Assembly (NCBI GenBank): GCA_947627465.1
Contig: CANQWD010000024.1
Span: 1-43,932, forward strand
Direction: 5' to 3'
DNA length: 43,932 bases
Source: an uncultured Clostridia bacterium
GTDB taxonomy: Bacteria; Bacillota; Clostridia; Oscillospirales; Ruminococcaceae
Of the stretch, positions 17,789 to 20,520 are shown in pieces. The notes beneath the pieces were generated by a model. The model saw only the letters and a list, made by a program, of their open reading frames with translations. It was not told the origin of the DNA and searched no databases. How positions within the stretch are numbered: the first letter of the stretch is position 1; the number at the start of each line of letters is the position of its first letter. A program made the position numbers and the translations under genes.

Positions 17789-17828
17789 GTGCTTTGGTAA
17801 ACCGAAATGCAAGAATTTCAGTAAATTA

Positions 17829-17920
17829 TAGCAATCCACGAAAATAACGCAACAGTTAAATTAAACGTCATAATGCGAGACATGGGCTTAAAGGCGCTAA
17901 TGTTTAACTGTGGATTGCTA
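17829..17920. repeat. Imperfect long inverted repeat between the DUF58 gene and pgi
   Basis: The right arm TTTAACTGTGGATTGCTA (17903-17920) is complementary to two blocks on the left: TAGCAATCCAC (17829-17839) and ACAGTTAAA (17852-17860), which are separated by an extra 12-14 bases. The 317-bp gap around it holds no gene. The structure lacks a clear T tract, so it is unlike a plain terminator. It might be a small mobile palindrome with an insertion in one arm, or a regulatory RNA. Confidence 0.5.
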
Positions 17921-18006
17921 CAAGCATACTTTTTGTGAAAAATAAACAAAAAATCATTGTTGAATAGTTGGATTTCTACAAAATAGTGTGCGTTGCATAA
18001 AACTCC

Positions 18007-19485: not shown

Positions 19486-19890
19486 ATGGTTAAGATCATT
19501 ACAGGAAACAAAGGTTCCGGAAAGACAAAAATTCTCATCGACGCTATTCACGAAGCGGAAAAGAAGTCCAACGGCAATGTTGTGGCTATTCAGAAAGGCT
19601 CGTCGCTCAACACCGACATCACTCACAAGGTTCGCCTTGTAAACATTGAGGATTACTCGGTCGAGGGCGTTGACGCGTTCTACGGCTTTGTAGCGGGAAT
19701 TCTTTCCAGCGACCACGACTGCACGGACATTTTCGTAGACGCTACTTTGAAGATCACCGGTAAAGATTACGCTAAGCTCGGCGAGATGTTCGACAAGCTT
19801 GCGAAGATCACACCCAACACCACGGTAACATTAACGGTTTCCGCTGACAACAGCGAACTTCCCGAGAGCGTAAAGAAATTTATCGCATAA
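19486..19890 (+). CDS. Small P-loop protein of unknown function
   Basis: A 134-residue protein starts with a strand and a Walker A loop, GNKGSGKTK (residues 7-15). A candidate Walker B strand is DIFVDATLK (about residues 81-89). It is much shorter than typical ATPases and has no other recognised domain. It lies between pgi and rpmF, with a good GGAGG ribosome site and its own terminator. Similar short ATP-binding proteins are common as hypotheticals in Clostridia; a role cannot be assigned. Confidence 0.75.
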   Translation: MVKIITGNKGSGKTKILIDAIHEAEKKSNGNVVAIQKGSSLNTDITHKVRLVNIEDYSVEGVDAFYGFVAGILSSDHDCTDIFVDATLKITGKDYAKLGEMFDKLAKITPNTTVTLTVSADNSELPESVKKFIA

Positions 19891-19911
19891 ACGCGGTTTT
19901 TACAGAATGCT

Positions 19912-19942
19912 GCGTCCCGTCTGTTTGGCGGGACGTTTTCTC
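19912..19942 (+). terminator. Terminator of pgi and the P-loop gene
   Basis: CGTCCCG (19913-19919) pairs with CGGGACG (19929-19935), followed by TTTTCTC. It is 22 bp after the stop codon. Confidence 0.8.
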
Positions 19943-19995
19943 GCAGCGATTTTGGAAACGTCGTTTGCGTGGGGATTTAGGCGCATGGTATTACA

Positions 19996-20026
19996 GCGCG
20001 GCTGTCTTGCAGGAACGTTGCCGCGC
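19996..20026. other. Hairpin next to four-way-junction element copy 2
   Basis: GCGCGGC (19996-20002) pairs with GCCGCGC (20020-20026), one base of which overlaps the outer stem of the following element. A similar extra hairpin precedes copy 1. No gene is seen in 19943-20334 apart from this hairpin, the element and the promoter. Confidence 0.5.
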
Positions 20027-20110
20027 GGGACGGGCAGACGTTTTGCGCTTTGCGCAAAACCGCGGCGCAAAGCGCCGCGCGCCGCCTTTGGCGGCGGTCT
20101 GCCCGTCCCG
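20026..20110. repeat. Four-way-junction palindromic element, copy 2 (upstream of rpmF)
   Basis: A perfect 14-bp outer stem, CGGGACGGGCAGAC (20026-20039) with GTCTGCCCGTCCCG (20097-20110), encloses three perfect hairpins with no unpaired base between them. Arm 1 (20040-20060) has 9 bp and a TTT loop. Arm 2 (20061-20079) has 8 bp and an AAA loop. Arm 3 (20080-20096) has 7 bp and a TTT loop. All 85 bases are paired except nine loop bases. Arm 1 begins GTTTT and ends AAAAC as in copy 1, while its inner four base pairs differ but still pair. It lies 125 bp before the rpmF -35 box. Confidence 0.8.
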
Positions 20111-20235
20111 CCCCCAAGACCGCGGGCGCGTTTGAAAGAGGAACGCAGTCGGTCGATAGAGGATCAAAGCGGGAGTTCGGAGAGGGCTTCGGCGCCGAAC
20201 GATACAGAAAAGTGATAAAAAATCGAAAAACCCCC

Positions 20236-20264
20236 TTGACAAATTTATCGGAACGTGGTATAAT
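20236..20264 (+). promoter_or_regulatory. Sigma-A promoter of rpmF
   Basis: TTGACA (20236-20241) and TATAAT (20259-20264) are 17 bp apart; a second TATAAT overlaps at 20264-20269. A CCCCC tract touches the -35 box as at the rpoB promoter. Confidence 0.92.
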
Positions 20265-20334
20265 ATAATCTGTTCGATAATAACGGCGGCATTATGCCCT
20301 GTTTTGACTTAAATCGTGTTGAGGAGGGATAAGA

Positions 20335-20520
20335 ATGGCAGTTCCTAAGAGAAAAGTATCGCGCGCAAGACGTGACAAAAGACGCTCTGCGGTATGGAAA
20401 ATCGAAGCTCCGAATTTTACGCGCTGCAAATCTTGCGGCGAGTTGAAGCTTGCACACAGAGTGTGCCCCAATTGCGGTCACTACAACGGTAAGGTTGTAA
20501 TCGCAAAGGAAGCGGATTGA
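20335..20520 (+). CDS. rpmF: 50S ribosomal protein L32
   Basis: The 61-residue product begins MAVPKRKVSRARRDKRRS, the classic L32 start, and has a zinc-binding four-cysteine motif CKSCGELKLAHRVCPNCG. This is therefore the zinc-dependent C+ form. A GAGGAGGG ribosome site precedes it. In many Firmicutes rpmF follows yceD (DUF177); that gene is absent here and rpmF has its own promoter and terminator. Confidence 0.98.
   Translation: MAVPKRKVSRARRDKRRSAVWKIEAPNFTRCKSCGELKLAHRVCPNCGHYNGKVVIAKEAD

Follow-up and report, generated by a model that had tools for sequence, protein, structure and literature searches.

REP sequences are simple palindromes of 20–40 bp (PMC3733652). As REP/BIME with RAYT they are dispersed between genes in many copies, with alternating orientation and species-specific abundance (PMC2817692). 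The cross-shaped repeat described here resembles them in these respects, but differs in being 85–89 bases long with four helices that meet in a four-way junction, in belonging to a larger, modular element, and in that a Y1 transposase was not found in the genomes richest in crosses. Stem-loop repeat families of 40 bacterial genomes are likewise intergenic and share a fold; in the part of that survey compared here they are single or paired adjacent stem-loops, and none is described as a cross (PMC2267715). The likeness to the telomere overhangs of Streptomyces, which have GNA loops with sheared pairing, and to the “rabbit ear” ends of parvoviruses lies in palindromes with GNA loops, sheared G.A pairs, folding of one strand at inverted ends and compensatory changes (PMC7205883, PMC4513846). 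Those ends cap linear DNA, whereas the crosses lie inside the chromosome, between genes and in many copies. The attC sites of integrons have extrahelical bases and R boxes, and differ in this from the cross, which is fully paired without any extrahelical stem base. The likeness here is to repeats that are recognised as a folded single DNA strand and show little sequence conservation (PMC2727003). Literature searches, with a small reach into subscription papers, returned no account of such a cross-shaped repeat. The repeat is of a known kind, the small non-autonomous structured repeats, and the cross-shaped fold is the variant.

The locus lies in a window of 43,932 nucleotides, the whole stretch of DNA that was analysed. 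The preliminary description of this DNA had claimed a fully paired four-way fold at 20026–20110, which proved exact: 76 of the 85 bases are paired, in a 14-bp outer stem and three hairpins (9, 8 and 7 bp) whose loops have three bases each, there is no unpaired base at the junction, and the fold forms on the + or − strand alike. The outer stem is in fact 1 bp longer, i.e. 15 bp, so that this type I cross on the rpmF side spans 20025–20111. The folding energy of 20026–20110 is −72.8 kcal/mol, with z-scores of −8.7 (+ strand) and −10.3 (− strand), and none of 200 shuffles was equally good. The + strand loops are TTT, AAA and TTT, and the AAA/TTT loops give this cross no loop polarity. A linker-like box, AACGTTGCCGC (20014–20024, + strand), adjoins the cross as at other type I crosses when read by eye. 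Between the upstream stop codon and the rpmF promoter lie 345 bases in the source genome (19891–20235), the cross among them; as judged by eye, this interval is much shorter in the relatives read. The sole terminator-like match in 19880–20340 was at 19918–19935, away from the cross, and an intrinsic terminator at 20025–20111 was rejected as no terminator match was seen there.

A second copy had been reported at 2578–2666. The shared plan held up; this copy is imperfect, with one mismatch in the outer stem as well as mismatches in the middle arm (−57.3 kcal/mol, z −7.7 on the + strand). It is a type II cross on the − strand (L039), with the loops GAA, GCA and AAA on that strand, and it is followed by a hairpin with tandem G.A steps (G.A hairpin; 2503–2577, − strand), a copy that belongs to the alignment of model R2. 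A structural scanner that looks for neighbouring hairpins enclosed by an outer stem found exactly two crosses in the window, 20025–20111 and 2578–2666, and zero in dinucleotide shuffles of the window (n = 5). Model R3, which consists of 11 type II crosses (alignment A8) and was built without the 20025–20111 cross, detected that cross on the − strand with an E-value of 1.1e-13 within the window. Elsewhere in the window, at 17826–17923, there is a repeat of ~100 bases with 14-base inverted ends that matches pieces of L085 and G038.

A DNA search of the source genome (G000) gave more crosses on C30 (three), C31 and C36, and a partial one on C15. Those on C30 occupy intergenic gaps, and the genes around them were assigned with Pfam to DXP synthase, an FtsJ-like methyltransferase and NAD kinase. 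The flanks of the copies correct the preliminary description in one respect: the cross is a single building block within a longer non-coding element, in which a cross II or a tandem-G.A hairpin, X, is followed by the G.A hairpin, a middle part, a linker and a cross I. The X head has a stem of 9–14 bp, a tandem G.A/G.A step, a further stem of 9–10 bp and a loop of 41–46 bases, in most cases with a small hairpin at its end. At other places the G.A hairpin follows X instead of a cross. The arrangement on C31 is X, G.A hairpin, linker and cross, that on C36 is cross, G.A hairpin and cross, and at four places two X heads face each other. A scan for helices with a double mismatch gave 36 distinct G.A/G.A cases, 10 of the complementary TC/TC, and at most three of any other kind.

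Some further observations were made on the X module and on other repeats. At L074:3909-4179 (−) and L089:3508-3821 the X loop seems, by eye, complementary to the linker beside cross I, with one matched change between these two orthologous copies, which could indicate a pseudoknot or a paired recognition site. At L182:51-138 (C41 of G000) an X module sits immediately before a promoter whose gene reads as that of ribosomal protein L34; copies therefore precede the promoters of rpmF, rpoB and probably rpmH. The source genome also carries a MITE-like repeat of ~250 bases, unrelated to the cross, with the ends AGGGCGTGTTCACATTACC and GGTAATGTGAACACGCCCTA as read in three copies; its sites are L019, L020, L023, C17:52906, C39:828, C46:3418 and C47:5045.

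The covariance-model search suggested in the preliminary description was run and returned more copies in the genome and the genus. These further copies keep the outer stem and the three arms with compensated stem changes, which supports the suggestion of a new family of small palindromes that are probably mobile. The proportions of paired cells, which are raised because part of the sequences came from scans for the fold (the rest from similarity searches), were 99.2% for X (20 sequences; slid controls 36–47%), 94.1% for cross II (11 sequences; slid controls 31–43%) and 94.0% for the G.A hairpin (23 sequences; slid controls 38–54%). Changes on both sides were seen in 17 of 24 pairs of X, where none of 500 shuffles was as high, in 13 of 34 pairs of cross II and in 17 of 28 pairs of the G.A hairpin. 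Cross II had no G.U cell, and its further pair types showed no excess over shuffles (114 of 500 as high). A U.G wobble is kept in 22 of 23 copies of the G.A hairpin. In genome G036, 37 distinct 73-mers were collected, of which 8 out of fixed register were left out; in the 29 remaining crosses 882 of 899 cells were Watson-Crick, with 2 G.T, 3 A.C and 12 other mismatches, so that G.T was no commoner than A.C. The paired percentage in scanner-found crosses is not taken as evidence, because the scanner demands good pairing.

Within the genus, the cross model matched 18 of 41 genomes; the match counts were 22 for G000, 13 for G014, 12 for G038 and at least 112 for G036. R3 counts are matches rather than copies, and near-palindromes may count on both strands. 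At the level of the order it matched in 3 of 394 genomes, one of which (G057) belongs to another genus. The X model matched in 8 of 41 genus genomes and, among 297 genomes of the family, in the source genome only (filters were stricter whenever more than 40 genomes were searched together). A strict G.A-hairpin pattern was found in GTDB contigs at three loci, all in the MAG “uncultured Clostridia bacterium Lapin-023__bin29”. No similar sequence was found in the plasmids and phages searched, and three patterns had no match in viral contigs. With Rfam 15, the window gave 0 matches, six loci gave one sub-threshold match at chance level (E 2), and L244 and L245 gave only a tRNA; a known structured RNA family was rejected, as the searched stretches had no curated Rfam 15 match.

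Genome G036 was analysed in 13 stretches (222,041 bases) that were picked because they had matches. The scanner found 65 three-arm crosses in them, 59 of which lie outside open reading frames of ≥150 aa. The copies share a 3′ part made up of the linker, cross I and then, in 20 of 49 parsed copies, TAGG. We found 11 units of cross II with a G.A hairpin, some in tandem, and 10 of these have a cross I 170–388 bases downstream. The stems of cross I are nearly constant in this genome, and the loop bases differ between copies. Flipped crosses were not seen in G036 (none against 53 in the normal orientation); three candidates were dismissed on reading, as two in L245 were normal crosses on the other strand and the third was without a true linker. 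Neighbouring open reading frames, 20 of 67 of which were scanned with Pfam, were host genes or had no family, with no transposase or recombinase among them, and the same was true of ten open reading frames near G000 copies. In L244–L256, further dispersed repeats lie beside the crosses, e.g., runs like CTAGAGAATAGTTGTTAG and hairpins before GATTAGATTGTCT.

In order to assess how the two window crosses are distributed among relatives, we compared the corresponding loci. Of 43 genus genomes, 41 yielded the rpmF gene and 40 the N-terminal part of rpoB, and 30 loci were compared for each; the scanner, which an imperfect cross could escape in any relative, found a cross only at the locus of the source genome in both sets. 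In the rpoB set, the upstream sequence of L165 and L167 is too short to reveal a cross at the position seen in the source genome, and G038 was left out as its rpoB starts at a contig end. Both window crosses are thus private to the source genome, by scanner among the relatives compared. A role as a conserved site regulating rpmF or rpoB was rejected, the relatives compared being without a cross there. Likewise, G000 carries X with its G.A hairpin beside dprA, and the corresponding position in G038 lacks it. Several other copies are common to these two genomes at the same place, amid genes that are roughly 77–88% identical; many copies are therefore old. Of the features expected of a MITE, inverted end modules were seen; exact ends and a target duplication were not found, and the loci compared held no clean filled/empty pair with a duplication. 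What the analysis shows directly is the family, its modules, the covariation and the lineage-specific presence, as well as the loop type and strand polarity described below.

Loops were compared in 77 unique crosses, 47 of them from G036 (counting four crosses of L221 and L237 as G036); these crosses are related, not independent, and the scanner does not select loop types. Tetraloops were GNNA on one strand in 111 of 124 cases, all closed by C-G, against C(GNNA)G in 46 of 176 control hairpins outside crosses at the same loci. Both G036 (87/91) and the others (24/33) were above the control. Triloops were GNA in 64 of 105 cases (29/48 in G036, 35/57 elsewhere), and with these two counts the 77 crosses display the trait of Streptomyces telomeres, GNA loops with sheared pairing on one strand. 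Such GNA and GNNA loops form exceptionally stable DNA mini-hairpins (PMC4686876, PMC8373063). The third base of GNNA in G036 was a pyrimidine in 70 and a purine in 17 loops (control 17 and 29; p 9e-7). Outside G036 the counts were 13 and 11, with no difference from the control (p 0.21). The argument against RNA GNRA loops is therefore confined to G036, because there is no pyrimidine excess elsewhere.

Loop polarity was concordant within the cross in 44 of 45 G036 crosses with at least two polar loops and in 17 of 23 such crosses from other genomes, the remaining 6 of 23 being mixed. Where a cross directly adjoins a G.A hairpin (15 crosses), all polar loops but one (39 of 40) were GN(N)A on the G.A strand. 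For cross I in G036 (32 distinct among 55 matches) the linker strand, which is the G.A strand, carried TN(N)C in 75 loops, GN(N)A in 0 and neither in 21. As the loop types are opposite at the two ends, the ends fold on opposite strands, each toward its own 5′ end. The polar strand was the more stable one in 51 of 61 crosses with RNA parameters and in 55 of 61 with DNA parameters, and thus the folding energies do not separate DNA from RNA. A cruciform or a structured RNA had originally been put forward; judged from the sequences, loop type, polarity and the near-zero G.U make it more likely that one DNA strand folds than that the fold is an RNA or a symmetric two-strand cruciform. This suggests selection for ssDNA folding at inverted ends, comparable to Streptomyces telomeres.

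Taken together, we tentatively propose that the cross serves as an end module in a small, dispersed DNA element which is non-coding and probably mobile, though not autonomously, which has spread within a single genus of Clostridia and whose folds are read by a putative enzyme in an ssDNA stage, a proposal to which we give nearly an even chance. The fold at each end would arise once its own strand is single, and would be either a cross whose loops are C(GNA)G or C(GNNA)G, or an X hairpin containing a tandem sheared G.A step. The ends would be inverted, each fold lying toward the 5′ end of the strand that forms it. The element would pass through an ssDNA stage in which the putative enzyme recognises the end folds, and selection for this recognition may keep the stems paired. 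DNA rather than RNA as the folding molecule, movement as the mode of spread and the fold-reading enzyme are what we infer in this proposal. The stronger claim, that these mobile elements form a class of their own, pass through a single-stranded stage and have inverted cross or G.A-hairpin ends with GNA/GNNA loops, each lying toward the 5′ end of its own strand and read by an enzyme other than Y1/IS200, is possible but doubtful.

The element could instead be transcribed, with the crosses, X and G.A hairpins forming a large non-coding RNA or processing or stability signals of UTRs. Strong covariation, the kept U.G wobble together with tandem G.A steps on one strand, and the intergenic position of the copies (59 of 65 outside open reading frames of ≥150 aa) are in agreement with this, and an RNA would also give loop polarity, with RNA energies favouring the polar strand in 51 of 61 crosses. 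We nevertheless consider a structured RNA rather unlikely, as the cross stems are almost without G.U, the third base of GNNA in G036 (Y 70, R 17) is unlike that of GNRA, each element folds on one strand at one end and on the opposite strand at the other, and Rfam had no match in the stretches searched. The scarcity of G.U or mismatch intermediates, with pairs nevertheless changed on both sides, would fit passive palindromes, i.e. ordinary dispersed repeats with a functionless fold whose stems are kept perfect by template switching in replication. However, template switching should also erase the tandem G.A steps, which persist, and would not be expected to fix either C(GNNA)G loops or loop polarity; we regard this explanation as quite unlikely.

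A role as transcription terminators or insulators ahead of strong promoters is suggested by the position of both window crosses between an upstream gene and a strong promoter. Against this, no T-run follows the cross at 20111, the relatives compared have no cross at rpmF and rpoB, and 52 scored pairs of flanking genes in G036 were co-directional in 33, convergent in 12 and divergent in 7 cases, which makes such a role improbable in our view. REP-like elements moved by a Y1 transposase (RAYT or IS200/IS605-like) would match the multi-copy intergenic palindromes, alternating orientation and species-specific abundance known from REP/BIME (PMC2817692). The Y1 family PF01797, as in IS200/IS605 and RAYT, was found in 9 of 43 genus genomes, which are incomplete drafts, but not in the drafts of G036, G000, G014, G038, G002, G026 and G034. 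Only G011 and G027 of the 18 genomes with cross matches have it, and these have 1 and 4 cross matches, respectively. Movement by Y1/RAYT is therefore disfavoured, a Y1 gene not having been found in the most cross-rich genomes, and we hold it to be highly improbable.

The crosses are dispersed chromosomal sites whose loops indicate, copy by copy, which strand folds. The combination of stems that covary with hardly any G.U, C(GNNA)G loops and concordant polarity is a possible computational test of DNA versus RNA folds for other repeats. If the single-strand reading proposed here is true, it points to a novel ssDNA-processing system in gut Clostridia, and would connect repeats of the chromosome with the folded termini of linear and single-stranded replicons.
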